Positions 4,823 through 56,130 of a stretch of 64,000 bases of DNA are shown here, piece after piece; the first letter of the stretch is position 1; each line of letters opens with the position of its first letter. The position numbers and the translations under genes were made by a program. The DNA is from Sediminibacterium sp. TEGAF015 (GTDB taxonomy: Bacteria > Bacteroidota > Bacteroidia > Chitinophagales > Chitinophagaceae). The notes under the pieces were generated by a model. The model had not been told where the DNA came from. It worked only from the letters and a program-made list of their open reading frames with translations, and made no database searches. Location: positions 2,046,501 to 2,110,500 of the forward strand of contig NZ_AP026683.1 in assembly GCF_025997995.1 (NCBI RefSeq), read 5' to 3'.

Positions 4823-7800
4823 ATGAATTTCATAGAAGGCGTTGCCAAAAAATTCAAAGAATTTAAACCTACCAGCTGGGCGATAGACAATCGTACAGCC
4901 GTGTATGTAATCACAATTTTGATTTCTTTGTATGGACTTAACAAGTTCACTACACTACCCAAAGAGCAGTTTCCTGATATTGTGGTACCTACCATTTCTA
5001 TCACTACTGTTTATTTTGGTAATTCACCCAAAGACATCGAAAACCTGGTTACCCGACCCATTGAAAAACAATTAAAGGGAATCAGCGGAGCCAAAGTCAA
5101 TAAAATTCAATCTACTTCTCAGCAAGACTATAGTTTGATTGTAGTAGAATTTGATACAGACATTAAACCTGAAATTGCTAAGATAAAGGTAAAAGATGCA
5201 GTAGATAAGGCGCAAACCGATTTACCAAATGACCTGACTTCTTTACCTAACGTACAAGAGTTTTCAATCAGTGATCAGCCTATCATGTTTGTTAACCTGA
5301 GCGGAGATTTTGACGGAGTAAAACTGAAGGAGTACGCAGATAAATTACAGGATCGTTTTGAGGAATTAAAAGAAGTGAATCGTGCAGAAATTGTAGGTGC
5401 ACCAGAAAGAGAAATTCAAATCAATATTGATCCCGCAAAACTGGCTGCTGCAAAATTAACTTTCAGAGATATTGAATCTGCGGTTAACCTAGAGAACAAG
5501 GATATCAGTGGTGGTTTGGTAGAAGTGGGTACCATGAAGCGCAATATCAAAATAAAAGGACAGTTCAGAACTGCCTTTGATATGCAGCATATACAGGTGA
5601 AGAATGTAAACGGAGCTCCTATTTATTTACAGGACGTTGCACAAATCATTGACACGGTTAAAGAAACAGAGAGTTATGCACGTTTGGACGGCAAAAATGT
5701 AATTACAATTAACATTGTAAAAAGAGCAGGCGAAAACCTGATTAATACAGCTGATGGTATTAATAATATAGTAGCCGAAATGCAGAAAAGCGATGAGCTA
5801 CCAAAGAATCTGAAAGTAGTAATTACCGGAGACCAGAGTAAGGGTACTAAAACATCTTTTAATGAACTGGTAAATACCATCATTATCGGATTTATACTAG
5901 TATTGGTTATTCTGATGTTTTTCATGGGGGTTACCAACGCATTCTTTGTTGCATTAAGTGTGCCGCTTTCCGTTTTCGTTTCCTTTATGTTCCTGCCACT
6001 TGGTGAATTCATTGCAGGTGGTGCCATTACCTTAAACTTCATCGTACTTTTTGCCTTACTGTTTGGCCTGGGTATCATTGTGGATGACGCGATTGTGGTA
6101 ATTGAGAATACACATAGAATTTATCAGAATGGAAAAGTAAAAATTGTAAGATCAGCTAAAGAAGCTGCAGGAGAGGTATTTATTCCTGTACTAGCAGGTA
6201 CTGCAACCACACTAGCGCCATTCTTCCCATTGCTTTTATGGAAGGGAATTATTGGTAAGTTCATGATTTACCTGCCCATCATGCTGATATTAACATTGGC
6301 CGCATCATTGGTAGTTGCTTTCTTCATCAACCCTGTTTTTGCAGTAAGCTTCATGAAGCCAGAAGGCAGAGAATATGAATCTCCCAAGAATGCCATCTTT
6401 AAACAATGGTGGTTCTGGGGAAGCATCATACTGGGTGTTTTGTTTAATCTGGTTGGATGGCATGGATTCGGAAACTTCCTGATTTTCATGGCACTACTGG
6501 TAATATTGGAGAGATATGTATTAAGGGGCATCATTCACTTCTTCCAGGAAAAAGCATTGCCTGGTTTAATGAACAGATACGAAAAACTCTTAAAGTACAT
6601 TTTAGTTAGAAAAAGACCTGTTTATCTTTTAATTGGATTATTCATTCTTTTCCCAATCTCTCTGTTCTTATTAATCCTTAGAAACAACCCTAAACCATTC
6701 TTCCCTAGTGGAGATCCTAAATTTGTTTATGTGTATTTAAAAATGCCAATTGGTACGAAAGCACAAACAACAGATTCGGTACTAAGAATTCTTGAGGGTC
6801 GAGTATATAAAATTTTAGGAACTGATCAACCTGGTAAAGAAGGAAGTATTGTAGAAAGTGTTATTTCAAACGTTGCAGTTGGAGCAAACAATCCAAGAGA
6901 CAATAACAGAAGTACCCAATCTCATCTAGGTAGAATTCAGGTTTCCTTTGTAGAGTTCGAAAAACGCCACGGTAAAAGCTCTGCTCCATTCCAGGATGAA
7001 ATCAGAAATCAAATGGTAGGTATTCCTGGCGCTACAATAGAAGTAAGACAAGAGGACGCAGGTCCGCCAACAGAGCCGCCTGTTAACATTGAAGTGAGTG
7101 GAGACAATTTTGATGCAATGTCTAAAACAGCCATTCAATTGTTAAATCACTTAGACACCAACCGTGTAGAAGGTATGCAGAGTCTCGGAATGGATGTAGA
7201 TTTAAACAATCCTGAAATTACCGTAAAGATAGACAGACAAAGAGCATTGGCAGAAGGCGTAAGTACTGCACAGATAGGCTCTGAATTAAGAACAGCCGTG
7301 TTTGGTAAAGAAGTGAGCAAATTGAAAGATGATGAAGACGAATATAAAATTCAGCTTCGTTTCGATTCAAAGTCACGTAACAACATAGATGAGTTGATGA
7401 ATATGCGAATTGTATTCAGAGACTTTACTTCAGGTGCAATTAAACAAATACCATTGAGCAGTGTGGCTACTGTTGAATATACCAACACAGCTGGTGGTGT
7501 AAAAAGAAAGAACCTGAAAAGAACCATCCAGATTCAATCGGCGGTTACTGATCCAAGTTTAACACCTGAAATCAACAAGGCATTAGCCAAGAAGATTGAA
7601 GAGTTTAAAACTAAAACTCAAATCCCTGCAGACATTACCATTAAACAAACCGGTGAAGGAGCTCAGCAAGCAGAAACCAGTGCCTTCTTAGGAACAGCTT
7701 TATTGAGTGCATTACTGATTATTTTCTTAATCCTGGTATTACAATTCAATAGTTTAAGTAAACCTTTCATTGTATTAACAGAAATATTCTTCTCCATTAT

Positions 7801-11476: not shown

Positions 11477-12781
11477 TTATGGCTCAATAATATTCGCCAG
11501 ACGCTTCAGTTCTACTTCGGCAACCTTGGCTGTGAATGCCAAGTTAACCAATCTGTAGGATTCATTCTCAAAACTTTGTTGAGCCAGCTTCACATCAATA
11601 ATAGTAGCTTGTCCTAATTGAAAACGTTGCATTACCAGGTCTAACAATTGTTTGCTTAAAATCTGGTTTTCTTTAGCGGTTTTTAATTGTGCTAATGCAT
11701 TGCTGTATGCCTGATAAGTGCGTACAGTTCCCGTTTCAATATTTAATAAAAACTGGTCTCTTTGTACTTTGGCATTGCGGGTATTAATTTCAGCAACCTG
11801 TTGTTGCTTTTTGCTAATCATACCATTATAAATAGGTATCGCTAAATTCACCCCCAGAAAAGGACCATAGCTTCTATTCTCTAAAATAAAACCAGCGCCA
11901 CTTTTGGTATTGCTAAAATTGAAACCGGTAGTTGCTCGTAGGGTTGGTACACGTAAGGCAGCAGTTTCTCTTTCCAGCAACTCATTAATTTTAATTTGTT
12001 GCTCTGCAGCTGCAATTTGCGGGTTTTTCAAGGCCAGAGGCTTTATCTGACTTAGCGTCACCTTCTCATCTACTACGATAGAATCTTTAATAACTACCGC
12101 ACTATCCGGGCTAACAAATAACAAACTCAATAAATTGGTTTTACCCTGATCTATAATTAATTGTTGCGCTTGTTTAGATTGTATCAATGCATTAAGGTCA
12201 ATTTGTGCCTGATATAAATCTGCATTATTGGCCAAACCGACTTCTTTTCTGCTTTTGATAACATCAATTCTTTGCTGAGATACCTCAATCGACTTTTCAA
12301 TCGTATTTAATAAATTCTGTTGACGTACTACATCATAATAGCTGGTCATAACAGCAGCCATGGTACCCTGAATCTGTGCATTGAGCATATCCTCATTCAT
12401 CTTCTGCAACTCGGCCAATCTTTGTTGTGCCGCTTTCACCCTAAATCCATTGAACAATAAAATACCTGCTGTAATATTGGCATTCATATTATTGGAAGAC
12501 ACTCCGCTTCTGGTAACGTTTCTGGAAGGATCTGGAAATTTCTGATTAATGCTGGTCGCATTTTCAACATCACTAACGGTAGCAGTTACAGTAGGAAGAC
12601 CGCCTGCAACACCAACATAATTGTTGATAGCAGCAATCTCCACATTGTTTTTAGCCAACTGAATATTATAGCTGTTTTTCAAAGCGATTGCTACAGCATC
12701 TGACAAACTTAATCTGTTCTGGCCAAACCCAAACTGGGTAGCCATTGGTATTACCAGGAATGATAGGATTAATTTACGCAT
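11477..12781 (-). CDS. TolC-family outer-membrane protein (orphan)
   Basis: 434 residues from the ATG at 12781, which gives a clean signal peptide (MRKLILSFLVIPMATQFGFG, cut before Q). Duplicated helical repeats follow, e.g. LQKMNEDMLNAQIQGTMAAV and LDLVMQRFQLGQATIIDVK, the latter being the conserved TolC C-terminal motif. No adaptor or pump gene is adjacent; the neighbours are pyrH (57 bp upstream) and an aminotransferase. It may serve pumps encoded elsewhere. Confidence 0.88.
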   Translation of the reverse strand: MRKLILSFLVIPMATQFGFGQNRLSLSDAVAIALKNSYNIQLAKNNVEIAAINNYVGVAGGLPTVTATVSDVENATSINQKFPDPSRNVTRSGVSSNNMNANITAGILLFNGFRVKAAQQRLAELQKMNEDMLNAQIQGTMAAVMTSYYDVVRQQNLLNTIEKSIEVSQQRIDVIKSRKEVGLANNADLYQAQIDLNALIQSKQAQQLIIDQGKTNLLSLLFVSPDSAVVIKDSIVVDEKVTLSQIKPLALKNPQIAAAEQQIKINELLERETAALRVPTLRATTGFNFSNTKSGAGFILENRSYGPFLGVNLAIPIYNGMISKKQQQVAEINTRNAKVQRDQFLLNIETGTVRTYQAYSNALAQLKTAKENQILSKQLLDLVMQRFQLGQATIIDVKLAQQSFENESYRLVNLAFTAKVAEVELKRLANIIEP

Positions 12782-43754: not shown

Positions 43755-45806
43755 ATGTATACAGTTGAAAACTACATTGCAGGGAATTGGATTAAGGGGG
43801 ATGGAGACGGACAATTATTGTTCAATGCCGTAACCGGGGATCCCATCGCCAGAGCTACAAGTAAGGGATTGGATTTTGCAGCGGCGCTTCATTATGCCAG
43901 AAGCAAGGGTAATCCGGCACTGAGAAAAATGAGTTTTCACGAAAGAGGGTTGATGCTTAGGTCTTTGGCTATTTACTTAAGAGAGCATTTAGATGAACTT
44001 TATAACATCAGTTACCAGACGGGTGCTACCAAGGCAGACAGTTGGGTGGATATTGAAGGGGGGATTGGGAACCTGTTTTCCTATGCTTCCTTAAGAAGAA
44101 AACTTCCAGACACGCCGTATTGCTTAGATGGGGAACATCACCCGTTAGGAAAGGCCAATACATTTATGGGCCATCACTTATTAATTCCGAAAGAAGGGGT
44201 TGCCATACATATCAATGCATTTAATTTCCCTGTTTGGGGCATGTTGGAAAAAATTGCAGTGAACCTGCTGGCAGGGGTTCCGGCCATTGTAAAACCCGCC
44301 ACTGTTACTTCATATTTAACGGAAGCAGTAGTTAAAAAAATAATTGCTTCTGGTATTTTGCCCGATGGAGCACTGCAGCTGATTTGTGGCAGTGCCGGAG
44401 ATTTGCTGGATCATGTTCAATCGCAGGATGTGGTTACGTTCACCGGTTCAGCACATACAGGTCTCTTATTGAAATCACATCCAACAATTTTGGCAGAGAA
44501 TGTTCCCTTTACCATGGAAGCAGATTCACTTAACTGCATTGTATTGGGAGAAGACGTTGAGCCTGGCATGCCCGAATGGGATATTTTTATCAAAGAAGTA
44601 AGAAGAGAAATCACCACCAAGTCTGGACAAAGATGTACCGCTGTAAGGAGAATCTTTGTACCAGAAAATAAAATAGAAGCGGTTCAGCAATCATTAACGG
44701 CTGCATTGGCTCAAAATGTAATTGGCAACCCTTTGAATCCTTCTGTAAGAATGGGTGCTTTGGCAGGTGAAGCACAGAGAAAAGAAGTAAAAGCGCAGGT
44801 AGAGAAATTATTAACCAGCTCCAGTATCTTATATGGTTCACTGAATTCGGTAGACGTGGTAGATGCCGATCCGGTAAAAGGAGCTTTTATTAGTCCACTA
44901 TTATTATTCAATGATAACCCCTTCGGGAATACAGTTGTACATGAAGTAGAAGCATTTGGACCAGTAGCTACTTTAATGCCCTATAAAAAAACAGAAGACG
45001 CTATCGCCCTATCTAAGTTGGGCAAAGGGTCATTGGTAAGTAGTATTGTAACAGCAGATACTCGCATTGCCACCGACTATGTTGTGGGTGCAGGTACCTA
45101 TCATGGAAGAATTTTGGTGTTGAATCAACAATGTGCTAAAGAAAGTACCGGTCATGGATCACCCTTGCCATTATTAGTACATGGTGGACCAGGAAGAGCC
45201 GGAGGCGGAGAAGAAATGGGTGGATTAAGAGGGGTTAAGCATTATATGCAGCGTGTGGCCATTCAGGGTTCGCCGGATATGATTACTGCTATCAGCAAAG
45301 TATATCAGCCTGGTGCAAAAGGAAATACCAATACCATACACCCTTTTAAAAAATATTATGAAGATCTAAAAATCGGGGATCAGTTGATTACAGAGAAAAG
45401 ATTGATCACTGCAGAAGACATCAATGCTTTTGCTGATTTAAGTGGGGATCATTTTTATGCGCATTTAGAGGGAACTGATTTTAATGGCACTATGTTTGAG
45501 AGACAAGTAGCACACGGTTATTTGTTAATGAGTATGGCTGCAGGATTGTTTGTGGATAGTTATGAAAAAAATCCGGTGCTACTCAATTACGGCATTGACG
45601 AATTAAGATTCACTAAGCCAGTATATCCCGGAAGTGAAATGCATATTCGTTTTACTTGTAAAGAAAAAATTAGGCAAGAGAAAAAAGAAATAACCGATAT
45701 TGATAAAGGAATTGTAAAGTGGCTGGTTGAAATGATTGACGAAACAGGGGAACTTACCGGAATCGCAACCATTTTAACGATGGTAGCCAGGAAACCCGTA
45801 AAATAA
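43755..45806 (+). CDS. paaZ: Bifunctional aldehyde dehydrogenase / MaoC-like hydratase (PaaZ-type)
   Basis: 683 residues in two fused enzymes. Residues 1-520 are an aldehyde dehydrogenase: nucleophile Cys294 in KSGQRCTAVRRIF, general base Glu in FTMEADSLNC, INAFNFPVWGMLEK and TFTGSAHTG. Residues 535-683 are a MaoC hot-dog domain with the D-H dyad in ADLSGDHFYAHL and QVAHGYLLMSM. PaaZ opens oxepin-CoA and oxidises the resulting semialdehyde in aerobic phenylacetate breakdown. The ring-hydroxylating paaABCDE genes are absent here. The next gene, 5 bp away, is an enoyl-CoA hydratase. Confidence 0.92.
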   Translation: MYTVENYIAGNWIKGDGDGQLLFNAVTGDPIARATSKGLDFAAALHYARSKGNPALRKMSFHERGLMLRSLAIYLREHLDELYNISYQTGATKADSWVDIEGGIGNLFSYASLRRKLPDTPYCLDGEHHPLGKANTFMGHHLLIPKEGVAIHINAFNFPVWGMLEKIAVNLLAGVPAIVKPATVTSYLTEAVVKKIIASGILPDGALQLICGSAGDLLDHVQSQDVVTFTGSAHTGLLLKSHPTILAENVPFTMEADSLNCIVLGEDVEPGMPEWDIFIKEVRREITTKSGQRCTAVRRIFVPENKIEAVQQSLTAALAQNVIGNPLNPSVRMGALAGEAQRKEVKAQVEKLLTSSSILYGSLNSVDVVDADPVKGAFISPLLLFNDNPFGNTVVHEVEAFGPVATLMPYKKTEDAIALSKLGKGSLVSSIVTADTRIATDYVVGAGTYHGRILVLNQQCAKESTGHGSPLPLLVHGGPGRAGGGEEMGGLRGVKHYMQRVAIQGSPDMITAISKVYQPGAKGNTNTIHPFKKYYEDLKIGDQLITEKRLITAEDINAFADLSGDHFYAHLEGTDFNGTMFERQVAHGYLLMSMAAGLFVDSYEKNPVLLNYGIDELRFTKPVYPGSEMHIRFTCKEKIRQEKKEITDIDKGIVKWLVEMIDETGELTGIATILTMVARKPVK

Positions 45807-45811
45807 AAGTT

Positions 45812-46588
45812 ATGATTGAACACATTAAAGAAGGGTATGTAAAAGTAGAGCGAGAGCACGGCATTGCAACGATTGAGTTTTTTCATCCGCAAAGCAATTC
45901 TTTACCTGGTAAAATTTTAGATGCTCTGGCAAAAGAAATTTATAGTGAAGGATTAAATAAAGAAACTAAAGTAATTGTACTGCGTTCAGCTGGAGAAAAA
46001 GTATTTTGTTCTGGCGCTTCCTTTGACGAATTAGCAGCAATTAAAAATGAAGCAGAGGGTCTTGCATTTTTTAGTGGCTTTGCTAAAGTAATCAATGCTA
46101 TGCGTACCTGCGGCAAAATCATTATTGCACGTATTCAGGGAAAATGTATTGGGGGTGGAGTTGGTCTGGCTGCTGCAGCAGACTATGCTATAGCCTGCGA
46201 AGGTGCCGATGTAAAACTGAGTGAATTGGCGGTAGGCATTGGTCCATTTGTAGTGGGGCCTGCCGTAGAAAGAAAGATAGGTTTGTCTGCTTTTTCTCAA
46301 TTGACCATAGATGCGGTTACTTTCAGACCTGCAGATTGGGCTAGAAGAAAAAGCTTGTATGCAGAACTGCATCCAGATGTAGCCGGCATGGATGAATCCA
46401 TCATCAGACTATCTACTACGCTATCTCAATCCAATCCGGATGCGTTAAAGGAATTAAAAAATATTTTCTGGAAAGGAACAGAACACTGGGATGAATTGCT
46501 AAAAGAAAGAGCTGGCATTAGTGGGCGCCTTATATTAAGCGAACACAGCAAAGCATTTATTCAGAGATTCAAACTGAAATTGTCCTAA
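45812..46588 (+). CDS. Enoyl-CoA hydratase/isomerase family protein
   Basis: 258 residues of the crotonase fold. Oxyanion-hole motifs: CSGASFDELAA and QGKCIGGGVGLAAAADYAIA. Of the two catalytic glutamates of rat crotonase, the first position is Gly (GGGVGL) and the second is kept (KLSELAVGIGPFV). That pattern recalls methylglutaconyl-CoA-hydratase-like or isomerase relatives. It sits 5 bp after paaZ, so a step in phenylacetate or fatty acyl-CoA metabolism is likely. Followed by a strong terminator. Confidence 0.88.
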   Translation: MIEHIKEGYVKVEREHGIATIEFFHPQSNSLPGKILDALAKEIYSEGLNKETKVIVLRSAGEKVFCSGASFDELAAIKNEAEGLAFFSGFAKVINAMRTCGKIIIARIQGKCIGGGVGLAAAADYAIACEGADVKLSELAVGIGPFVVGPAVERKIGLSAFSQLTIDAVTFRPADWARRKSLYAELHPDVAGMDESIIRLSTTLSQSNPDALKELKNIFWKGTEHWDELLKERAGISGRLILSEHSKAFIQRFKLKLS

Positions 46589-46621: not shown

Positions 46622-46658
46622 AAAAAACCTAAGGATTTAAATCCCCTTAGGTTTTTTT
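46622..46658. terminator. Bidirectional terminator between enoyl-CoA hydratase and DUF5777 genes
   Basis: AAAAAACCTAAGG and CCTTAGGTTTTTTT arms around an AT-rich loop. The right arm overlaps the last codons of the convergent DUF5777 gene. Confidence 0.88.
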
Positions 46659-47554
46659 ATGGTGAAAATTCTGGCGATATTGAATCCAAAATGTATATCC
46701 CCTTTACCCCACTGTCCATTAGTCTCATGAATAAACGTTCTTTCGGTCATGCCAGTTGAATTGGAGAAATGCAATTGAAACACGTGTCCTCCTGTTTCAA
46801 TATCAACACCTACAGAAAGGCTATTATAGAATCCGTTGAATTTTTGAAACTGATAATAGTATTCGCCCGTAAGATTTACCCGCTTGCTTACACGGATTCT
46901 TGTTCCAACACCCAGTGAATATAAATCATTAGGATCTGTAGCCAGTGGTACATTGTTATAATGCACCATGGTTGGTGTTAATTGAAATGAAAAATAATCG
47001 TTGAATTTTTTTGCTATTAAAATTTGATTGAAATAGCTGAATCTGTCTGTATAGTAAAATCCCGAACCAGTGCTGGCATCATTCAATGTCTTAAAGATTA
47101 CACCACCTACATAACTTACAGAAATAGGCATATTTACCTTACCCGTACTCTGTCTAAGAATCCGGTATTTTACAAACCCATCGTATTGTTTTAAATACGT
47201 ACTTCTGCCAATTCCAACCATCAATCTACTGTTTATGCCATAATCTAAACCCATTCGCATGGTTGCCTGGTCTAATCCAAATAAATTATAGCCGCCCGTA
47301 TTAACCCTCCCAAAACGGTGATTGATTTTTACATCCAACAAGCCAGCCCCAATATTTTCAATAGAATGACCATTTACGATACGGGTTGTTTTAAAAATGG
47401 CAGTGGTTATATCAGTGGCATTCTTATCCTTCTCTTTTTCTTCCTGTTCTTGCAGCTTAAATAAATCAACCTCCTGTGCCGCTAAGTAGTTAGAAGAAAA
47501 TACCAACAAAAACAAACCGACAAATGTGGAACGAATGAATTTCATGTTTATCAT
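46637..47554 (-). CDS. DUF5777 family outer-membrane beta-barrel protein
   Basis: 305 residues with a signal peptide (STFVGLFLLVFSSNYLAAQ). The rest alternates short amphipathic strands (AGLLDVKINHRFG, MRMGLDYGINSRLMVGIG, YDGFVKYRIL, HVFQLHFSNSTGMTE), the mark of an outer-membrane barrel, and ends FGFNIARIFTIKKP. DUF5777 proteins are a Bacteroidota family of unknown role, commonly close to YceI and cytochrome genes. It is the last gene of the run led by the ECF sigma factor and starts directly after the YceI stop. Confidence 0.82.
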   Translation of the reverse strand: MINMKFIRSTFVGLFLLVFSSNYLAAQEVDLFKLQEQEEKEKDKNATDITTAIFKTTRIVNGHSIENIGAGLLDVKINHRFGRVNTGGYNLFGLDQATMRMGLDYGINSRLMVGIGRSTYLKQYDGFVKYRILRQSTGKVNMPISVSYVGGVIFKTLNDASTGSGFYYTDRFSYFNQILIAKKFNDYFSFQLTPTMVHYNNVPLATDPNDLYSLGVGTRIRVSKRVNLTGEYYYQFQKFNGFYNSLSVGVDIETGGHVFQLHFSNSTGMTERTFIHETNGQWGKGDIHFGFNIARIFTIKKPKGI

Positions 47555-48094
47555 TTAAAAATTACAATTAACCTGCACGTTTGCTTCCGACGCAATTTTT
47601 TCACCTATATAAGAGCCGGCAATTTTATAATCTGACAGCTTAACTTTAAAATCACTTTTCAAACTGGCTTTGCCGCTTTTTACTGTAATAGTACCAGGTA
47701 CTTTAATTTTCTGGTCTACACCATGAATGTTCAGCGTTCCTTCTGCTTCCACTTTATAAGCACCGTCTGCATTAAAGTTAACAGTGGCAATATTGGTAAC
47801 AAAACCTTTAAATGATGCTTTGGGGAATTGCGTGCTTTCCAAATAGTTTTCATTAAAATGGTCTTCCATTAACTGATTCTCGAAACGAAACCCCTTAATC
47901 AAAAGAGTAAAAATGATCTGCCCGTTGGTTGGTAACATTTTACAGTCAACCTGATTGTTTACTGCTTCTATTTTAACAAGTTCCCCTGTTGCATTAAACT
48001 TGGCAACACCCGCCTTGGTTGACAATAAAGTCTGTGCATTTATATTAGCTGAAATAGCTGTAATCAATAATGCAATAATTAGGATTTTTTTCAT
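47555..48094 (-). CDS. YceI family periplasmic lipid-binding-like protein
   Basis: 179 residues with a signal peptide (ALLITAISANINAQ). The lipocalin-like YceI core includes FTLLIKGFRFENQLMEDHF, ESTQFPKASFKGFV, EAEGTLNIHGVDQKIKVPGT and ASLKSDFKVKLSDYKI. YceI proteins bind isoprenoid chains (quinone-like) in their barrel. Here the partner genes encode cytochromes and an OB-fold protein. It starts 10 bp after the OB-fold gene. Confidence 0.9.
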   Translation of the reverse strand: MKKILIIALLITAISANINAQTLLSTKAGVAKFNATGELVKIEAVNNQVDCKMLPTNGQIIFTLLIKGFRFENQLMEDHFNENYLESTQFPKASFKGFVTNIATVNFNADGAYKVEAEGTLNIHGVDQKIKVPGTITVKSGKASLKSDFKVKLSDYKIAGSYIGEKIASEANVQVNCNF

Positions 48095-48104
48095 TGTTTG
48101 TTTA

Positions 48105-48518
48105 TTAATTGTTTAGTTTAACAATTGCATCTGTAATAACTACATCGCTTGTAAAGCCGATACAAAGTCCTTTAATTGAAATTTTATTTCCCTTTTCAAT
48201 GGAATCATGCTTTTCTTTTAATGTGCAATACACACTTGAAAAATCATTGGCCCCATCAAGAGTGACAGTTGTATTTCCAGCCTGATCCTGTCCAACTTCT
48301 TTTATCATTCCTTCCACTATCAGCGCCTTATTCAGGTATTTTTGATTGGATTCGTTTTCATTTTGATTGTAATTAGCAACCAAAGCAACTGCAGTAATTG
48401 AGATTGCTTTTTCTTCGGATATATCTCTACGATGAGTCGCAGAATATATAAACACATAGTACCCAACAGAAGCTGCTATCAGCAAAACCAATCCCAGAAA
48501 GATTAGAACTTTTTTCAT
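48105..48518 (-). CDS. OB-fold (tRNA_anti-like) membrane-anchored protein
   Basis: 137 residues. A single N-terminal span (VLIFLGLVLLIAASVGYYVF) anchors a periplasmic OB-fold: KALIVEGMIKEVG, NTTVTLDG, SVYCTLKEKHDSIEKGNKISIKGLCIGF. This is the tRNA_anti-like pattern seen in Bacteroidota 'OB-fold putative lipoproteins'; the ligand is unknown. It starts 2 bp after the cytochrome gene, so it belongs to the same transcript. Confidence 0.78.
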   Translation of the reverse strand: MKKVLIFLGLVLLIAASVGYYVFIYSATHRRDISEEKAISITAVALVANYNQNENESNQKYLNKALIVEGMIKEVGQDQAGNTTVTLDGANDFSSVYCTLKEKHDSIEKGNKISIKGLCIGFTSDVVITDAIVKLNN

Positions 48519-48520
48519 AG

Positions 48521-48892
48521 TTAATTATTTAACATGCCCGCATTAATCCAGGCCTGAAATTTTGAAATATCACAGGTAGACAATTTCCCGCCGCCCTTTG
48601 GCATTGCCGAAGCCTGACCATTCTGTAAGATGGAGTTCATAAAGCGACCGCCATTAACAGAGGCTTTTACGCCATTATAAGTATCTAAGATAATACCAGC
48701 TCCTGCAGCTGCATTGCCTCCATGACAACTATTGCAGGATGCATTCAATATGGGGAGCAGTGTTGAAGAAAATTTCACATTGGCTGTATCACAATTAGCT
48801 GCAGCAGGATATACCAATTCTGCTTTGTCATAATAACAAGCGCTGAACAGGGAAATGAAAAACAAGAAAAGTATTGAAAGAGGTTTTCGCAT
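48521..48892 (-). CDS. Monoheme c-type cytochrome lipoprotein
   Basis: 123 residues with a lipoprotein signal (Cys19, LFSACYYD). Heme-binding motif Cys53-Asn-Ser-Cys56-His57 (CXXCH) and a Met in SAMPKGGGKLS that could be the axial ligand. The C-terminus FQAWINAGMLNN matches the other two cytochromes in the window. Membrane-anchored periplasmic electron carrier. Confidence 0.85.
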   Translation of the reverse strand: MRKPLSILFLFFISLFSACYYDKAELVYPAAANCDTANVKFSSTLLPILNASCNSCHGGNAAAGAGIILDTYNGVKASVNGGRFMNSILQNGQASAMPKGGGKLSTCDISKFQAWINAGMLNN

Positions 48893-48938
48893 AGCTATTT
48901 TTTTATTGAAGCATACTTGTTCATTGTGGCATACCGAT

Positions 48939-49640
48939 TTACTGAGGCATCCCCGCTTTAATCCATTTGGTCATCTGGGTAATTTTACAAGCGGCCATAG
49001 GAGCTCCTACTGGCATACGCTGACTGGCTGGTAATGTAGGCGCATGGTTAATAGCATCCAGGAATAATTGCTTGTTGGCATTTATGTAAGACTGCGTAGC
49101 CGCATAGGTTCCCAAGTATACATTGCCCGAACCAGGAGCAACTCCATGACATCCATTACAGTTATTCGCCAGTATAGTTTGAATGGCTGTTCCATAAGTA
49201 AACTTCGTGGTGTCGCAACTGTTCACACAATTGGTATTTAAAGCGCCCTGATCAATCCATTTTTTAATCAAACTAATTTGCGCACTGCTTAATGCAGGAT
49301 ACCCTCTTGGAGGCATTTCACCTTTGGTAATTATTTTATAGTATTTACTGTTGGGGGCATCTTTAGGCTTAATGCCTCGCATGATAGTATTATAATCTGT
49401 AGTTTGTACGCCTTCCGCATGAGTTGTTGCATTGTGACAACCAGCACTGGCACAATAACTCACATAAAGGGGTAAAATATCATTCTGAAAACAAACTGTA
49501 TCAGACACGGTGGTTCCAGAACCTGCAGGTCCACCAGTTACTAGTATTTCAGTCGGATTGATAGCCGAATTCAGAAATTCATGCTTACAGGCCATAAAAA
49601 AGAACCCTATCAGCAAACTTGATATAATAATCTTTTTCAT
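48939..49640 (-). CDS. Diheme c-type cytochrome-like lipoprotein
   Basis: 233 residues with a lipoprotein signal (Cys18, FFFMACKH). Two tandem cytochrome c-like modules: the first has Cys63-ASAG-Cys68-His69 (CX4CH) with Met in KGEMPPRGY; the second has Cys161-NG-Cys164-His165 (CXXCH) with Met in RMPVGAP. Each module ends in a W-I-(D/K)-x-G-(A/M) helix. Preceded by a GGCAACC-N16-TGTA site and therefore possibly a direct target of the ECF sigma factor. Confidence 0.85.
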   Translation of the reverse strand: MKKIIISSLLIGFFFMACKHEFLNSAINPTEILVTGGPAGSGTTVSDTVCFQNDILPLYVSYCASAGCHNATTHAEGVQTTDYNTIMRGIKPKDAPNSKYYKIITKGEMPPRGYPALSSAQISLIKKWIDQGALNTNCVNSCDTTKFTYGTAIQTILANNCNGCHGVAPGSGNVYLGTYAATQSYINANKQLFLDAINHAPTLPASQRMPVGAPMAACKITQMTKWIKAGMPQ

Positions 49641-49649
49641 AATAGTTAG

Positions 49650-49676
49650 TACACCGTATTTAAAAAAAGGGTTGCC
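49650..49676 (-). promoter_or_regulatory. Candidate ECF sigma promoter upstream of diheme cytochrome gene
   Basis: On the minus strand GGCAACC (49676-49670), 16 bases, then TGTA (49653-49650). The same elements with the same spacing occur upstream of the sigma gene at 51526-51552. The cytochrome ATG is 10 bp past TGTA. The 'AAC'-containing -35 is typical of ECF promoters. Confidence 0.55.
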
Positions 49677-49686
49677 TCTTAATAAA

Positions 49687-50919
49687 TTATTTTTTTTGCT
49701 TAAAAATTGGCTGTTTTAGATGAAGATAAATGGCGATGGTTCCCAGTCGATTGTGACCCTCTCCTAGTTCCTCCAAGGGAAGTTTGAATACTGGCTCAAT
49801 TTCAATAACGGCACTTCGTTTGGTTTTAATTGAAATACCAGTGCCAACCACCAAATTGCTTAGGATATGAGACTCACCAAAATCATCTGAATCGTTTTCA
49901 CTATTCCATAATAAAGGAGTATTCCCATTGAGTAGTAAGTCATATGTAAGCTTCTGTTTCAGAAAAAACAGTGAAGAAAGACCGACAGAACCAAGGAAAG
50001 AAATTTTATTGCTCGGCTTCGCCGTATATCGAACTGCCAGTGGAACTTCAAAAATGTGAAGGCTTCCTTTGACTTGTTTTAATTCAAGTGTATTGTAGGC
50101 GGGTAAATTAGGAGAAGGCTTGTATAAATAAGTCTGTCCTGATTCATAAACAGGAGTATAATTGTATAGCAAGCCAGTTCTAATAGCCCAGTTGGGTGAA
50201 AGTTGATAATTGATGCCCATACCTATACTTACACCTGGACGGTAAAATGGCTGTAAATTGGCCAATAAAAAGTCAGGTGCAAAAGAGAGATTCCATTCCC
50301 ATCTGGTTTGTTGCCTAGTTGATGGCTTTTTTAGTTGTGGGGTAATAGAAGTAGGAGGAACTGAATCTATGGGAAGCGAGGTTACCAGCGTATCGTTTTC
50401 CTTATTCGCTACATTTTTATCATTATTTGTCACCGTATTTTCCTTTTCAAGAATGTACAGGGTATCAACACTTTGTTTGTTATTTGAAATCGTTTTATGA
50501 ATACCGTTTTTTAGGTGATTTAATTTTTCTGTTACAATTGAATTTGGCTTTTCATTAGAACCAGAGATTTTACCTGAATGGTTCGTTTCACTAGAACCAA
50601 GGTTACTTTCCGAGGTTTGCGTTTCAATAGAACGTAATGTGTTATTCTCTACTTGAATAGACTTTTCTTCTACTTTAATAGCCGCTTTTTTATCTTCTTT
50701 ATTGGTTTCCCAGTTTTGATATCCAAATACCGTCCCCACTAACAAACCAACTATTACAAACCAGAAGAAAAATCTTCTTTTCTTTTTGTCAACAGGCATT
50801 TCCCTATCAAGTACCTGATGCATTGCATCCCAGTTGCCAGAACTTTTCAATTCATTATCTGCTTTTTCAAAAGCCGATTTAACCGAATTGTCAAATGAAT
50901 TAGAGTAAAATTTATCCAT
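49687..50919 (-). CDS. Membrane-anchored protein with beta-barrel-like domain, possible anti-sigma factor
   Basis: 410 residues. Residues 1-47 are cytosolic and charged (FYSNSFDNSVKSAFEKADNE), then one span at about 49-68 (RFFFWFVIVGLLVGTVFGY). A long Ser/Asn/Thr/Lys-rich linker covers about 70-205, and 205-410 is strand-rich and barrel-like (WNLSFAPDFLLANLQPFYRP, GVSIGMGINYQLSPNWAIR, VVGTGISIKTKRSAVIEIE). The gene overlaps the ECF sigma gene by 8 bp, the usual place for an anti-sigma factor. A sigma-binding role is inference. Confidence 0.7.
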   Translation of the reverse strand: MDKFYSNSFDNSVKSAFEKADNELKSSGNWDAMHQVLDREMPVDKKKRRFFFWFVIVGLLVGTVFGYQNWETNKEDKKAAIKVEEKSIQVENNTLRSIETQTSESNLGSSETNHSGKISGSNEKPNSIVTEKLNHLKNGIHKTISNNKQSVDTLYILEKENTVTNNDKNVANKENDTLVTSLPIDSVPPTSITPQLKKPSTRQQTRWEWNLSFAPDFLLANLQPFYRPGVSIGMGINYQLSPNWAIRTGLLYNYTPVYESGQTYLYKPSPNLPAYNTLELKQVKGSLHIFEVPLAVRYTAKPSNKISFLGSVGLSSLFFLKQKLTYDLLLNGNTPLLWNSENDSDDFGESHILSNLVVGTGISIKTKRSAVIEIEPVFKLPLEELGEGHNRLGTIAIYLHLKQPIFKQKK

Positions 50920-51493
50920 TCAGTCCTTTTTTCCGGTTTAATAAATTTTGTAAATGCTTCTTTGCCTTAGAAAGATTGGATTTAGATGTGCCTTCATTGA
51001 TACCTAAAATACCAGCGATTTCTTCATGCGTAAAACCATCCACTACATGCAAACAAAAAACAGTTTTATAGGCGGGTGGCAGCTTCATCACTAATTCAAT
51101 AATTTCTTTATAGCTAATGGAATTAAGAACACTTGTCTCCATTTCTTGCTCTAACGCTGAATTGTTTTCATACTGATTATCCAGCGTATTGTTGGACGCA
51201 GAAAATTTTTTATTATAATTGATACAGTTATTAATCAATACTTTCTTTGCCCAGCCCTTAAATGATGCCGAATTAAGACTGTACTGAGCCAAATTAAACT
51301 GTTCAATATTTTTAAAAACCCTCATGAATCCATCTAAAACCAAATCATCTACTTGAGTGAATTCTGAAGCATATCTTGTGCATACGGAAACAGCATAGCC
51401 ATACATCCAGTCATAGAGTTGCCTCTGGCATTGCCGATCATTTTTTCGACAGCCATCAATAAGATGCTTGATTTGCCCTTCTGTTAAACCCAA
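50912..51493 (-). CDS. ECF-type RNA polymerase sigma factor
   Basis: 193 residues from a TTG at 51493; an in-frame TAG immediately upstream rules out an earlier start. Region 2 spans about 25-90 (DDLVLDGFMRVFKNIEQFN and FKGWAKKVLINNCINY), region 4 about 130-185 (LPPAYKTVFCLHVVDGFTHE, then EIAGILGINEGTSKSNLSKA). A compact two-region sigma of the ECF group. Probably regulated by the overlapping downstream gene. First gene of the cytochrome/YceI/DUF5777 run. Confidence 0.93.
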   Translation of the reverse strand: MGLTEGQIKHLIDGCRKNDRQCQRQLYDWMYGYAVSVCTRYASEFTQVDDLVLDGFMRVFKNIEQFNLAQYSLNSASFKGWAKKVLINNCINYNKKFSASNNTLDNQYENNSALEQEMETSVLNSISYKEIIELVMKLPPAYKTVFCLHVVDGFTHEEIAGILGINEGTSKSNLSKAKKHLQNLLNRKKGLNG

Positions 51494-51525: not shown

Positions 51526-51552
51526 TACAGTAAATTGAAGCAAAGGGTTGCC
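51526..51552 (-). promoter_or_regulatory. Candidate ECF sigma autoregulatory promoter
   Basis: GGCAACC (51552-51546), 16 bases, TGTA (51529-51526) on the minus strand; the GGCAACCCTTT part is shared base for base with the site upstream of the diheme cytochrome. Located 33 bp before the sigma gene start, consistent with positive autoregulation. Confidence 0.55.
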
Positions 51553-51579: not shown

Positions 51580-52962
51580 CTAACGAAGGATTCCGGCAGC
51601 CCAGTTGACGCCATAGCTGGCTTTCAGATACTTGGCCCTTAACTGAATTAATTTTTCTGCGGTTTCTATGACTTTGTTTTCGCGGGTGTTTAAAAGAAAC
51701 AGAGAGCTTTCCCCATTCTGAAAACGAAGATTCTCGGCCTTTAACAAGGCAGTATACCCGTTATATGCCTGTTGTGCAGCAGCAATTTGTTCTTTCAATA
51801 AAGTTGCTTCTGCAAAATAGGATCTGATTTTATTTGCCGTATTCCATTGTTTTAAATTCAGCTCATAATTGGTTTCTGCAATTTTCAATTTGGCCTGCTT
51901 GTAAGATCCCTGTCCCTCTCTTAAGAAGATGGGAATCTTAAACTGAACACCCCAGACATAATTATTTTGCAAAAATGCACCACCAAAGTCTTTAAAAACA
52001 TTATATCCATTATTCAAAAGATTCGCTTTTACATTCAAAGAGGGCAATAGCGACTGAAACTTTAATTTCCTCTCCACTTCAAGTGCTTGCAGTTCAAGCG
52101 CAACACTTCTAATAGATGGGTTTTCCTGGTTTACAGTGTTAATTAGTTTTTCCGGGTCCTCAACAGACAAATACAATTGGAATTGTACCGTATCCGGAAC
52201 CAAACTAGCATTCAATAAATAGGCAGCATCATTTTCATTCCATAAAAAATTACCCAACTCCAGTTGAGCTGTTACCAGCTTCGCTTTTGCATCTGCCTGC
52301 ATCATCTGAAATTGTTGTACCTGGGTCAATGCCTCAATTGTATCAATAATCGCCCTGTCTCCATTTAAATAAGACAGTTTCACCAAACGGAAACGGTCTC
52401 TACTAATCTGCAAAAATTGATTATAAATACTATACAATTGATAGGCTCCTGCCCACTGCCAATAGGTATTATAGGCCTCAAATAACAAGTCGTTCTGCAT
52501 TTTCAGGCGATCCTGTTCACTTTGTTGTAAAGAAATTTGTGCTTGTTGTAAATTGGCTCTTCTTTGATCAATAAGCAACCCTTTTATTAATGGCATTTCC
52601 AAACCAAGATAGCTTGTTTGACCTCTAGTTATCTGGTTATTCAGAAATAGTCCTCCATTGTCTTCTAGCCCGGCTTTAATGTCCATACCGCCGATTCTGG
52701 TGGGAACTTTGAATTCAGGATTGGTATAGAAATAATAATTTTTCCCATCAAAGGTTTTCCTGCTTGCTTCCATTTCCACAGTAGGGTCAAAACCACCCTT
52801 TGCACTCAGCAAAGCTGCATTGGCTTTCTCTACTTTTATACCCGCTTGCTTAGCCAGAGGGTGAAAGCTTTTTACCTGATTAATAAATGCTTCAGGACTC
52901 AACACCTGAGCCTTTACTTGCAACACTGAAAAAAATCCAATTAAAAACAAGCAATGTCTCAT
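51580..52962 (-). CDS. TolC-family outer-membrane channel of type I-like exporter
   Basis: 460 residues with a signal peptide (CLFLIGFFSVLQVKA). Two helical repeats: LKMQNDLLFEAYNTYWQWAG and LYSIYNQFLQISRDRFRLVK in the first, QWNTANKIRSYFAEATLLKE and LRFQNGESSLFLLNTRENKV in the second. Starts 1 bp after the HlyD gene. Third part of an ABC-HlyD-TolC exporter. Confidence 0.9.
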   Translation of the reverse strand: MRHCLFLIGFFSVLQVKAQVLSPEAFINQVKSFHPLAKQAGIKVEKANAALLSAKGGFDPTVEMEASRKTFDGKNYYFYTNPEFKVPTRIGGMDIKAGLEDNGGLFLNNQITRGQTSYLGLEMPLIKGLLIDQRRANLQQAQISLQQSEQDRLKMQNDLLFEAYNTYWQWAGAYQLYSIYNQFLQISRDRFRLVKLSYLNGDRAIIDTIEALTQVQQFQMMQADAKAKLVTAQLELGNFLWNENDAAYLLNASLVPDTVQFQLYLSVEDPEKLINTVNQENPSIRSVALELQALEVERKLKFQSLLPSLNVKANLLNNGYNVFKDFGGAFLQNNYVWGVQFKIPIFLREGQGSYKQAKLKIAETNYELNLKQWNTANKIRSYFAEATLLKEQIAAAQQAYNGYTALLKAENLRFQNGESSLFLLNTRENKVIETAEKLIQLRAKYLKASYGVNWAAGILR

Positions 52963-52963
52963 A

Positions 52964-54337
52964 TTATTTCTCCTTACTTGCTTTTAGTTCTTCACCTTTT
53001 ACGGGCTTATAATATTCCGGAGGGAATCCATTAATATTTCGCCATAACTCATAGCCAATTGGCACGTCTTTCAATAGAGCAATACCGCTGGCACCGCCCC
53101 CCATTCTCAACTGTCTGGGCCATTGTTTTTCATTCGGATCTTCAACAACCAGTAATCTGAATTTTCCATTGCTACTCACCGAAGTTTCAACAGCCGCAAT
53201 TACTCCGCCGAATGTTCCATAAGAAGCTGCAGGCCAGCCAGAGAATACAATGGCAGGAAATCCATCGAATATGAAACGTATTTTTTGTCCCTTTGATAGA
53301 AGCGGAAGATCCATGGGTTCGGCGAATAATTCAACCGCATACCTTATTTTATCAGGTACAATTTCAACAATCATATCACCCTCCTTCACCATCTCACCAA
53401 GACCTGCTTTTCTTGCTTTGGTAATTTGTCCATCCTGGGGAGCAGTAATATAATATAACTTGTTTCGAATGTCATAATTGCTGTAAGCATTTTGCAATTT
53501 GGCTACATCTGCCTCTCCAGTTGCCATATTAGATATGGAACTAAATTGCTCCCCCTGCGCTTTGGAAATCTTATCTGTATATTCTTGAATGGTTCCATTC
53601 TTCTCAATTCTTATTGCGGATAACTCCTGTTTAGCTTGTAAAAATTTATTTTCAGCGCTAATTTTTTTGGCTATTGCATTTTGATAAGAAACTTTTCTTC
53701 TTTCAAAATCAACCAATGAAATAACCCCGCTATCTAACATATTTTTAGCAGCATCAATCTGTCTTTTAGTAATCGCCAATTCATTTAAAACAGCGGCTAA
53801 ATCAATGCTATCACTAATTACTTTCAAGTTTTGCTGACGAAGCTTAATATCCAGTTGATCTAATTTCAGGTTTCTAGCTTCTTCTAATGCCTTCATCTGA
53901 GATACTGCTGTTGCAGCTTTATTACTATAGCCTTCTACTGCTATCTGCTTGGCATCAATCTGTTTTTTAGTACGATTCAATAATTCCGGATCAAAGTAAT
54001 CGGTCTTTACCTCCCCTATTTGCAAAATAGTATCGCCCTTTTTAACAAAATCTCCTTCTTTAATATACCATTTTATAACCCTGCCCGCCAAAACTGTATT
54101 CAGTTCCTGAGGACGATCTTCCTGACGTAATGCAGTAACAGCACCTTTAGCCCGAATATTCTGGGTCCATGGTAAAAATAGAACAACAATTAAAGTTACA
54201 AGGGAACCCCACATCCACTTTTTTACCCTGTTTTTCTTCTTGATATTATAAATGGAATGATAAGAAGAAAGATTGGCGCTTTCTACTTCATCCTCAATAA
54301 CTGTACTAATGAATTTATTGTTGACCATAATTTTCAT
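52964..54337 (-). CDS. HlyD-family membrane fusion protein
   Basis: 457 residues; ATG at 54337 overlaps the ABC gene by 23 bp (another ATG at 54328 is possible). One N-terminal span at about 40-58 (WMWGSLVTLIVVLFLPW), the first lipoyl half (LAGRVIKWYIKEGDFVKKGD), a long coiled-coil hairpin (about 120-270), the second lipoyl half (ITAPQDGQITKARKAGLGEM) and a beta domain. Bridges the inner-membrane ABC protein to the TolC channel. Confidence 0.9.
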   Translation of the reverse strand: MKIMVNNKFISTVIEDEVESANLSSYHSIYNIKKKNRVKKWMWGSLVTLIVVLFLPWTQNIRAKGAVTALRQEDRPQELNTVLAGRVIKWYIKEGDFVKKGDTILQIGEVKTDYFDPELLNRTKKQIDAKQIAVEGYSNKAATAVSQMKALEEARNLKLDQLDIKLRQQNLKVISDSIDLAAVLNELAITKRQIDAAKNMLDSGVISLVDFERRKVSYQNAIAKKISAENKFLQAKQELSAIRIEKNGTIQEYTDKISKAQGEQFSSISNMATGEADVAKLQNAYSNYDIRNKLYYITAPQDGQITKARKAGLGEMVKEGDMIVEIVPDKIRYAVELFAEPMDLPLLSKGQKIRFIFDGFPAIVFSGWPAASYGTFGGVIAAVETSVSSNGKFRLLVVEDPNEKQWPRQLRMGGGASGIALLKDVPIGYELWRNINGFPPEYYKPVKGEELKASKEK

Positions 54338-56039
54338 TTAAAAATGGAGCAATAGCAGACCAGTTTCCAGAAGCTTTCACCACACCATCCTGCAGATATA
54401 TGATTTTATTACAACGAGCTGCAGTTTCCACATCATTGGTCGCAATCAGAACGGTTGCATTTTCTTCAGAAAATATATAATCCTGTATATTCTTTTTATA
54501 CTTACGCTCTAAAAAATTGAGAGGGTCTTCTAAAAGCAACAAACGCTTTTTACCTAATAAAGCCCTTAACAATAAAATGTCTTGTCTGATTTTGCTATTC
54601 AGTCTCTTTCCAGTTGGATCCAGAATAGTATCATACCCTTTGGGAAGGCTTTGAACAAAACTGGTCAATCCACAACGATTTACGAGATCAGTCACTTCTT
54701 CATAACCAATTTCTTCACTACCCATTGTTATGTTTTCCCAGATAGTACCATTAAAAATATCCTGCTGACTTAAGAGGATTCCTGTCTGTGCTCTTACAGA
54801 AGTTAAATTGTAATTCCCCAATGGCATTCCATCCAACAAAATAGAACCGGAAAAATTTGTAAAGGCGCCGGTAAGCAAACGTAAAATGGTAGACTTTCCT
54901 GATCCTGATTCTCCCATGATACAAACCTTGTCGCCCGGAACTATATTAAGATTGATAGAGTCCAATGCTTTTACATTATTACCATAAGTAAACCCTACAC
55001 TTTCAAATAAAACAGAAACTCCTTTGGGATTATCAGAAAGTTTAACAGTTCCCTGTACTTCTACTTCACTTTCGGTAACCTTGCTCAACTTCTCAACAGA
55101 AGTAAGGATATCATACACTTTATCCATATTTAAAATCAGCTTTTCAACTGATCCTATAATACTAATAATTACAAAGTCTGCTGCAATAAACTGTCCAATA
55201 TTGATTTGCTGATCAACAAGTAGGACCGCACCTACAATCAGCATAGCGGCCGTAATCACAACTTTAAAAATGATTAGACTCCAGTATTGAGTCAATAACA
55301 CTTTAAAGTAGCTTGTTCTTGCCTCAAGGTATTCGGTAACAATTCCATCTGTCTTTCTAATATTTAAATTTGTGCCTCTTGAATATTTGAAAGACTTAAT
55401 TACTCGAGCCATTTCTTCTAACCAGGCAGCAGTGGCAAATTTCAAATTGCTTGCTTCAATACTTTTCTGAAAGCCTGCGGGTAATGTGTATCTCATAATA
55501 AGGTACACAATTAAAGTTAATACTGCTCCAAAGCCAATAAATACAGGGTGGTAAAGAGAAAGTAATAGTAAACCAAAGAATATTTGAATAATGGCAGCAG
55601 GTACGTCAAGCAATAATTTTTCAACTGCTTTTTGAAGAGAAACCGTATCAAAAAATCGATTCACTAATTCAGGAAGATAATACGCATCTAATTTTTCAAT
55701 GTTCATCTTTGGCAGTCGATCTGCAAATTCAAGTGCGTATCTGACAAATAATTTTTGCTGAATCTTTTCTGTAAGCTGCAATTGCCTTACTTGTAAAAGA
55801 CCGTATAAAAGAACTGCGGCTACTACTAAGAAAATTAAAATGATAATGGAGGTAGAAATAGAACCTGCTAAAACGAAGCCGATGATGGTTTGTATCCCCA
55901 GCGGCATTGCCAAACTTAAAATACCAGCTAATATGGCAAATGCATAAATAGAAGAGACGTCTTTTTTATCCAATTTAAGGAGCTCCAAGATCTTTCTTGC
56001 CGCCCCCGTCGGTGATACTGCTTTTTGATTTTTTTCCAT
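54315..56039 (-). CDS. ABC exporter-like protein with degenerate ATPase domain
   Basis: 574 residues from the ATG at 56039 (a TTG 9 bp upstream is the alternative). Residues 1-320 are a six-span exporter membrane domain (LSLAMPLGIQTIIGFVLAG; YWSLIIFKVVITAAMLIV). The nucleotide-binding domain keeps Walker A (MGESGSGKSTILRLL, about 374) and the Q-loop (LLSQQDIFNGTI). The signature region reads LNSKIRQD instead of LSGGQRQR, Walker B reads LLLLEDP (acidic pair swapped), and the H-loop is IATNDVE (Asn for His). Partner of the downstream HlyD and TolC genes. ATP hydrolysis is doubtful. Confidence 0.87.
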   Translation of the reverse strand: MEKNQKAVSPTGAARKILELLKLDKKDVSSIYAFAILAGILSLAMPLGIQTIIGFVLAGSISTSIIILIFLVVAAVLLYGLLQVRQLQLTEKIQQKLFVRYALEFADRLPKMNIEKLDAYYLPELVNRFFDTVSLQKAVEKLLLDVPAAIIQIFFGLLLLSLYHPVFIGFGAVLTLIVYLIMRYTLPAGFQKSIEASNLKFATAAWLEEMARVIKSFKYSRGTNLNIRKTDGIVTEYLEARTSYFKVLLTQYWSLIIFKVVITAAMLIVGAVLLVDQQINIGQFIAADFVIISIIGSVEKLILNMDKVYDILTSVEKLSKVTESEVEVQGTVKLSDNPKGVSVLFESVGFTYGNNVKALDSINLNIVPGDKVCIMGESGSGKSTILRLLTGAFTNFSGSILLDGMPLGNYNLTSVRAQTGILLSQQDIFNGTIWENITMGSEEIGYEEVTDLVNRCGLTSFVQSLPKGYDTILDPTGKRLNSKIRQDILLLRALLGKKRLLLLEDPLNFLERKYKKNIQDYIFSEENATVLIATNDVETAARCNKIIYLQDGVVKASGNWSAIAPFLNENYGQQ

Positions 56040-56130
56040 TGAGCGCAAATATTACAAGTATTATACCATTATTAGCTTTGATACTAATAAGTTTTTGTGA
56101 AACCGTATAATGCAGACATTCCTAAAATGA

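Follow-up and report, generated by a model that had tools for sequence, protein, structure and literature searches.

A sigma-anti-sigma pair heads a run of envelope genes in Sediminibacterium

The genome of Sediminibacterium sp. TEGAF015, a single 3.06-Mb contig, carries on its minus strand a run of seven genes in which an extracytoplasmic function (ECF) sigma factor and a putative anti-sigma factor precede two cytochrome c lipoproteins, an OB-fold protein, a YceI-family protein, and a DUF5777 protein. We analyzed this run within a 64,000-nt stretch of the contig (the window; coordinates are positions within it) and alongside fetched comparison regions, which are labeled L followed by a number. 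An earlier note on this DNA had proposed a possible new ECF-sigma-controlled envelope redox module here, and an open reading frame (ORF) check located the seven minus-strand ORFs at 46637 to 51493, with the order, the spacers, and the 8-bp overlap of the sigma and anti-sigma ORFs as that note had given them.

The sigma gene (50912 to 51493) begins with a TTG codon, which aligns with the start position of its nearest relatives (L035 to L037), and its product matches Sigma70_r4_2 (9.8e-17) and TIGR02937 (3.6e-22). The second gene (49687 to 50919) encodes the 410-residue anti-sigma/barrel protein, which has a Pfam match to OMP_b-brl_2 (3e-11). Next come a diheme cytochrome c lipoprotein (48939 to 49640) with CX4CH and CXXCH motifs and a match to Cytochrome_CBB3 (9.7e-8) and a monoheme cytochrome c lipoprotein (48521 to 48892; Cytochrome_CBB3, 1.3e-5). 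They are followed by the OB-fold protein (48105 to 48518; PF12869, tRNA_anti-like, 6.1e-19), an optional component with a hydrophobic N-terminal stretch; the YceI-family protein (47555 to 48094; YceI, 8.1e-14), whose N terminus resembles a signal peptide; and the DUF5777 protein (46637 to 47554; DUF5777, 9.5e-93), a predicted 12-strand barrel. Pfam agrees with the protein families named beforehand, the monoheme cytochrome scoring slightly below the cut-off but possessing a CXXCH motif.

From sigma to DUF5777, the intergenic spacing is -8, 46, 46, 2, 10, and 0 bp. An ECF-type promoter signature, GGCAACC-N16-TGTA, lies 5' of the sigma gene (51526 to 51552, minus strand), where it likely serves autoregulation, and a second copy lies in the 46-bp gap 5' of the diheme gene (49650 to 49676, minus strand), as it also does in L035 to L037. 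A likely intrinsic terminator, consisting of a hairpin and a T-run on the minus strand (46622 to 46657; -17.2 kcal/mol, z -4.79), spans the DUF5777 stop codon; a simple terminator scan did not list it. The genome has four YceI-family matches, of which the module copy is one, and a single DUF5777 match, and a search of the same genome found no second anti-sigma match at E ≤ 0.1. The closest named relatives of the DUF5777 protein, at 86 to 87% identity, are encoded in one Sediminibacterium assembly and in two from Sphingobacteriia.

The anti-sigma factor is predicted to span both membranes

Dma (dual membrane-spanning) proteins are described (PMC13088901) as having an anti-sigma domain, a membrane helix, a disordered tether, and a C-terminal barrel, and as being encoded next to an ECF sigma factor. 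By its predicted domain architecture, the barrel protein of the window looks like an anti-sigma factor of this kind. It was modeled from an alignment of five sequences with a mean pLDDT (predicted local distance difference test) of 53.7. The model begins with two N-terminal helices (residues 8 to 24 and 29 to 40), mostly at pLDDT < 50; Trp30 is invariant in 15 sequences. The predicted membrane helix falls within a model helix spanning residues 46 to 101, and the most hydrophobic 19-residue stretch starts at residues 44 to 58 in 43 of 49 anti-sigma entries (residue 50 in the window protein). Residues 72 to 203, which have pLDDT < 50 and few regular elements past residue 101, were read as a predicted disordered tether, and 8 or 9 strands are modeled between residues 206 and 404. 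A Foldseek search ranked OmpA first (E 1.4e-9; TM-score normalized by target length, 0.67), and its top 20 matches also include Ail, NspA, and OmpX. Thus, the transmembrane helix, the long disordered tether, and the C-terminal beta-barrel that characterize Dma proteins are all predicted here.

In a tree of the sigma factors, from which L036 and L037 were omitted, 44 of the 45 pair sigmas formed one group (support, 95/95); the sigma of L216, which belongs to another pair of the same genome, grouped with other own-genome sigmas.

DUF5777 is modeled as an ordinary outer membrane-type barrel

The DUF5777 model, built from 14 sequences, has 12 strands (mean pLDDT, 67.1; predicted template modeling score, 0.64). 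Its top structural matches were FapF (Z 18.2, 213 aligned, 3.3 Å), KdgM (Z 17.8, 167 aligned, 2.1 Å), and NanC (Z 16.9, 185 aligned, 2.8 Å). The model suggests an outer membrane-type barrel and no more, since these are ordinary barrels that name no function. We rejected a heme-barrel fusion, a heme motif having been found in none of 97 DUF5777 proteins. A literature search found no paper naming DUF5777, for which this locus supplies a context.

The association is conserved across Bacteroidota, and the gene order is not

Of the 395 Bacteroidota genomes sampled, 153 have DUF5777. For comparison, 80 regions were fetched from the DUF5777 matches listed and 15 by protein search, together with 34 further regions, of which 32 were centered on anti-sigma matches and two were other own-genome sigma loci. 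The resulting 116 DUF5777 entries include one gene counted twice (L053/L054), and the genomes of different fetches may overlap. Of the companions counted on the same strand near DUF5777, YceI was the most frequent (96 entries), followed by cytochrome c (85 entries) and the OB-fold protein (42 entries); Rieske proteins (7 entries) and cupredoxins (6 entries) were rarer. We rejected chance adjacency by comparing genes near DUF5777 (within 4 genes) with genes far from it (at least 6 genes away), using the loose test of a 90- to 300-aa product with a hydrophobic N terminus: YceI proteins made up 105 of 469 near genes versus 4 of 253 far ones (p 6e-17), and CXXCH proteins made up 84 of 469 versus 6 of 253 (p 4e-11).

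The anti-sigma gene adjoins DUF5777 in 30 of the 43 matches listed with E ≤ 1e-50 among the 395 genomes. By kinship labels, the DUF5777-linked pair occurs in the class of the window and, outside it, in one family (f24), and the association of the anti-sigma gene with DUF5777 is old. The order of the genes from sigma to DUF5777 varies. Writing S for sigma, A for anti-sigma, C for cytochrome, O for OB-fold, Y for YceI, D for DUF5777, and x for other genes, we found S-A-C-Y-D 12 times, S-A-Y-D 6 times, S-A-C-C-O-Y-D 4 times, and S-A-x-C-Y-D 3 times, with the rarer orders S-A-O-C-Y-D (2), S-A-C-O-Y-D (1), and S-A-x-Y-D (1). In four loci (L188, L191, L197, and L198), a cupredoxin, YceI, and DUF5777 precede S-A, and in L044 the sigma pair lies on the opposite strand. 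L079 has a 132-aa anti-sigma-like fragment behind DUF5777 and no sigma. The expectation that the seven genes stay together therefore did not hold, the full order S-A-C-C-O-Y-D having been found in no locus other than the window and three close relatives; nor is the set fixed, with the cytochromes replaceable and 42 of the 116 DUF5777 entries having the OB-fold gene nearby. What the window shows as a seven-gene unit is one local version of a broader arrangement.

Other settings of DUF5777 were also seen. Five loci without a nearby YceI (L059, L064, L070, L102, and L105) combine DUF5777 with a small cytochrome c, Fer4_11 iron-sulfur proteins, and NrfD-type proteins, and three of these (L064, L070, and L105) add a protein with an ethylbenzene dehydrogenase domain (one Pfam-tested representative per cluster for three of four clusters). 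In family f4, L093, L098, and L109 have DUF5777-cytochrome-YceI, and L108 and L112 have YceI and no cytochrome; in all five of these sets a Crp-type regulator precedes, replacing the sigma pair, and ankyrin-repeat and DOMON-like proteins follow (Pfam on representatives, DOMON slightly below the cut-off).

In the window itself, the minus strand directly upstream of the module encodes a type I secretion-like set, comprising a TolC-like protein (51580 to 52962), an HlyD-like protein (52964 to 54337), and an apparent ABC (ATP-binding cassette) transporter ORF (54315 to 56048). We rejected the TolC-HlyD genes as part of the module because, outside the window, their relatives were seen next to it only in L035 to L037. 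Plus-strand genes at 43755 to 46588 converge on the module; they encode an aldehyde dehydrogenase-MaoC fusion and an enoyl-CoA hydratase, likely an unrelated step in aromatic degradation.

Unrelated redox lipoproteins occupy the same slot

We surveyed the carriers with custom profiles and motif patterns in the 33 loci that have sigma, anti-sigma, and DUF5777 on the same strand. YceI was present in all 33; cytochrome c was found in 22, a cupredoxin in 6 (one of them with a cytochrome c in addition), and a Rieske protein in 3. Pfam confirmed all six cupredoxins (Copper-bind, 1e-14 to 1.5e-10) and all three Rieske proteins (6e-9 to 6e-10). A lipobox pattern was matched by 6/6 Rieske proteins, 5/5 cupredoxins, and 57/78 cytochromes scanned and by only 1/111 YceI proteins. 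Exchange can be seen between relatives: L194 and L196, whose sigma factors are sisters in the sigma tree (support, 99/91), have unlike carriers, a cytochrome and a cupredoxin, respectively. A redox lipoprotein also adjoins the anti-sigma gene in 4 of 13 pairs without DUF5777, as a Rieske protein in L207, L212, and L214 and as a cytochrome in L208. Cytochromes c, cupredoxins, and Rieske proteins have unrelated folds and share electron transfer, which supports a redox reading; it is the swap of one carrier for two unrelated ones that argues most strongly for electron transfer as the use of the slot.

In two of the pairs without DUF5777, a multihelix protein is encoded between the Rieske lipoprotein and YceI (L212, 7052 to 7732; L214, 4151 to 4930). 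The 259-aa L214 protein gave a weak match to cytochrome b561 (1.2e-4, below the cut-off), and its L212 counterpart had no Pfam match.

A promoter signature precedes the sigma gene in most linked pairs

Inspection by eye showed the sequence GGCAACCCTTT-N12-TGTA both upstream of sigma and in the 46-bp gap that precedes the diheme gene, and this exact form was defined from those two sites of the window. The genome holds only the two module sites in exact form; with up to two mismatches allowed, it gave 12 matches in all (10 beyond the module) versus 9 for a reversed control. The third of the own-genome matches to a looser form, GGCAACC-N16-YGTA, sits inside a 507-aa gene. Among own-genome sigma genes (the best 13 of 22 PF08281 region 4 matches), that of the module alone has GGCAAC upstream.

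GGCAAC was found upstream of sigma in 31 of 34 DUF5777-linked pairs, which include the near copies L035 to L037, versus 53 of 688 background windows; the corresponding figures were 30 of 34 versus 17 of 688 for GGCAACC and 27 of 34 versus 8 of 688 for the two-block signature, and those 8 may include true second sites. The motif, defined on the loci fetched first, was then applied to 16 f24 loci obtained later, of which 14 had GGCAACC before sigma, again versus 17 of 688 (Fisher, 4e-19, an optimistic value because the 16 loci are mutually related). When 28 sites chosen by GGCAAC alone (L036, L037, and L202 omitted) were aligned, the presumed -10 block, which lies at a constant distance of 16 bases after GGCAACC, had G in 26 sites and T in 24. 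In L202, one GGCAAC site falls within an ORF, and the full signature is present in the same searched window. The pairs without DUF5777 had GGCAAC in 6 of 13 cases.

The carrier operon has a complete second site in front of it in the window, L035 to L037, L188, and L198, and a weaker one in L068. Because this second signature stands before the cytochrome genes, a single transcript of the run is not the sole prediction. A literature search found, among the matches listed, none that joins GGCAAC, an ECF sigma, and Bacteroidetes. Elsewhere, GGCAACC sites at 12530 and 14911 of L104 precede a glycosyltransferase gene and a gene for a 542-aa protein without a Pfam match, and L211 has a sugar transferase gene (6819 to 7556) behind the anti-sigma gene; together they recall the O-antigen effect of the Phocaeicola vulgatus pair discussed below.

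A model of an envelope-sensing redox response, and its alternatives

Taken together, these results suggest, with a probability of about 0.62, that the module is a self-contained envelope-sensing redox response in which the anti-sigma factor spans both membranes and the sigma factor drives the carriers, YceI, and DUF5777. The barrel of the anti-sigma factor would sit in the outer membrane and its disordered tether would run through the periplasm; the sigma factor would stay bound at the cytoplasmic end and be freed when the outer membrane or envelope is disturbed. We infer from the shared signature that the freed sigma factor reads GGCAACC-N16-YGT promoters at both its own gene, with positive feedback, and the redox operon, whose products would be electron carriers with a lipid anchor (in the window, two cytochromes c), YceI, and the 12-strand DUF5777 outer membrane barrel. 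YceI could carry a quinone or another lipid through the periplasm, and the module may link the quinone side to the outer membrane by electron transfer, most likely for the reduction or repair of oxidized envelope components or of a small substrate entering via the barrel. The first steps, namely sensor barrel, tether, and sigma release, would follow the published Dma model by analogy. Loss of dma2 in Bacteroides thetaiotaomicron strongly raises its own operon and also alters polysaccharide loci (PMC13088901), and an anti-sigma mutant of P. vulgatus had 15 genes changed at a strict cut-off (PMC9308784), so that a narrow regulon would fit here.

Several observations weigh against this model. The structural predictions carry low confidence for the anti-sigma factor (mean pLDDT 53.7, with the sigma-binding helices mostly < 50) and moderate confidence for DUF5777 (67.1). 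Of the 153 genomes with DUF5777, 30 have the linked sigma pair, and in most of the 153 YceI, cytochrome, and DUF5777 occur without it; this share was taken from the anti-sigma match list because L184 to L202 had been picked for an anti-sigma gene beside DUF5777. In the sigma tree, the DUF5777-linked sigmas are not one clade and are interspersed with unlinked ones inside the pair group. No carrier was found in 3 of the 33 loci (L056, L104, and L201), which were searched twice; L075 and L187 hold Lipoprotein_15 repeats, the function of which is not known, next to the cytochrome; and the proximity of Rieske proteins and cupredoxins to DUF5777 is weakly significant (11 of 469 near versus 0 of 253 far; p 0.01). 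The looser signature is no more frequent than its control in the own genome (3 versus 3), and over 11 genomes with the sigma pair it gave 66 matches versus 43 for the reversed control, with two outlying genomes at 15 versus 6 (G253) and 10 versus 3 (G391). GGCAAC is absent directly before sigma in L056, L184, and L187 (in L184 a site lies one gene farther upstream), and L075, L091, L196, and L197 carry GGCAAC with no clear -10 block. The full second site, finally, is restricted to the window and L035 to L037 among the 29 loci with carriers behind the anti-sigma gene and to 2 of the 4 with a cupredoxin operon in front (L188 and L198); the remaining same-direction loci may depend on readthrough from the sigma promoter.

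The same genes could serve the trafficking of lipids or quinones, with YceI and DUF5777 doing the work and the redox lipoprotein only maintaining the redox state of the cargo. YceI and DUF5777 are indeed the constant members (YceI in 96 of 116 DUF5777 entries) while the carrier varies, and the fold matches of DUF5777 include the small-molecule channels KdgM, NanC, and COG4313. However, a common barrel fold demonstrates no function, and the constancy of DUF5777 is partly a selection effect because the loci were picked for it. We consider this explanation, which departs from the preferred model mainly in emphasis, to be unlikely. Less likely again is a role in metal handling, in which the module would bind copper or iron or transfer it across the envelope, its carriers holding metal without relaying electrons. 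Cupredoxins, hemes, and iron-sulfur clusters all contain metal, a barrel protein is co-encoded with these metal-holding proteins, and the Lipoprotein_15 repeats of two loci might be read in the same sense, but a Rieske cluster or a covalently bound heme makes a poor metal buffer, and no metal transporter was recognized among the neighbor families present in at least 4 loci (13 clusters read).

More doubtful still is a bolder version of the electron-transfer model, in which DUF5777 and any slot lipoprotein would form a modular path of few cofactors through the outer membrane, with cytochrome c, cupredoxin, and Rieske proteins as interchangeable plugs, built only when the sensor barrel reports a disturbed outer membrane. 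Least probable of all is a conduit proper, with the lipoprotein docked in the DUF5777 barrel and serving an extracellular acceptor or donor. The co-encoding of a redox lipoprotein with an outer membrane-type barrel would suit it, and single-cofactor conduits such as Cyc2 exist, but the 97 DUF5777 proteins without a heme motif, the limit of 12 predicted strands, and the lack in the window set of any cytochrome with more than two hemes all argue against it.

The redox reading of the earlier note is right in outline, with support at the sequence level from the common promoter signature and the three unrelated carrier folds of the relatives. Its claim of novelty stands for the combination but not for the parts, since the kind of sigma-anti-sigma pair has been published (Dma/Das) and YceI, cytochrome, and DUF5777 are widespread without it; a literature search found no account in which such a sensor is combined with YceI, DUF5777, and a redox lipoprotein that can be exchanged.

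Comparison with known systems

YceI of Escherichia coli adjoins the cytochrome b561 YceJ, which resembles the present arrangement in that YceI stands beside a membrane redox protein (compare L214). That system has neither DUF5777 nor a sigma pair, whereas here lipoproteins of three unrelated folds serve as the carriers. Porin-cytochrome conduits (Mtr/PCC and Cyc2) place a multiheme cytochrome in a barrel or fuse a heme domain to one; the window differs in having only one- and two-heme lipoproteins, and DUF5777 proteins differ in the absence of a heme motif (0/97).

The class of double-membrane anti-sigma factors is young, and its outputs in the papers considered, from gut Bacteroidales, are vesicles, surface glycans, and toxin protection. 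Through this locus, these factors would gain an output that is compact, has a readable promoter, and centers on electron transfer in the envelope, in Bacteroidota inside and outside the class of the window. Its two candidate promoters, single regulator pair, and measurable heme proteins would also make the locus a convenient system for learning what such sensors sense.

The pair M0N98_03760-61 of P. vulgatus has the same domain order in its large anti-sigma factor, which is predicted to span the periplasm and to end in an outer membrane barrel; its regulon is tied to O-antigen length and toxin protection and not to a cytochrome/YceI set (PMC9308784). The same source says that the EcfO pair of Bacteroides fragilis responds to oxidative stress (PMC9308784). 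Dma1/Das1 and Dma2/Das2 of B. thetaiotaomicron likewise share the predicted anti-sigma domain order and a neighboring ECF sigma factor, which in the Dma family belongs to the ECF21 group and in the window is identified at the level of an ECF sigma. The outputs described for Dma/Das are vesicle formation and polysaccharide loci, and the main text contains neither the word "cytochrome" nor "YceI" (PMC13088901), whereas the neighbors of the pair in the window are a redox set with a common promoter signature.

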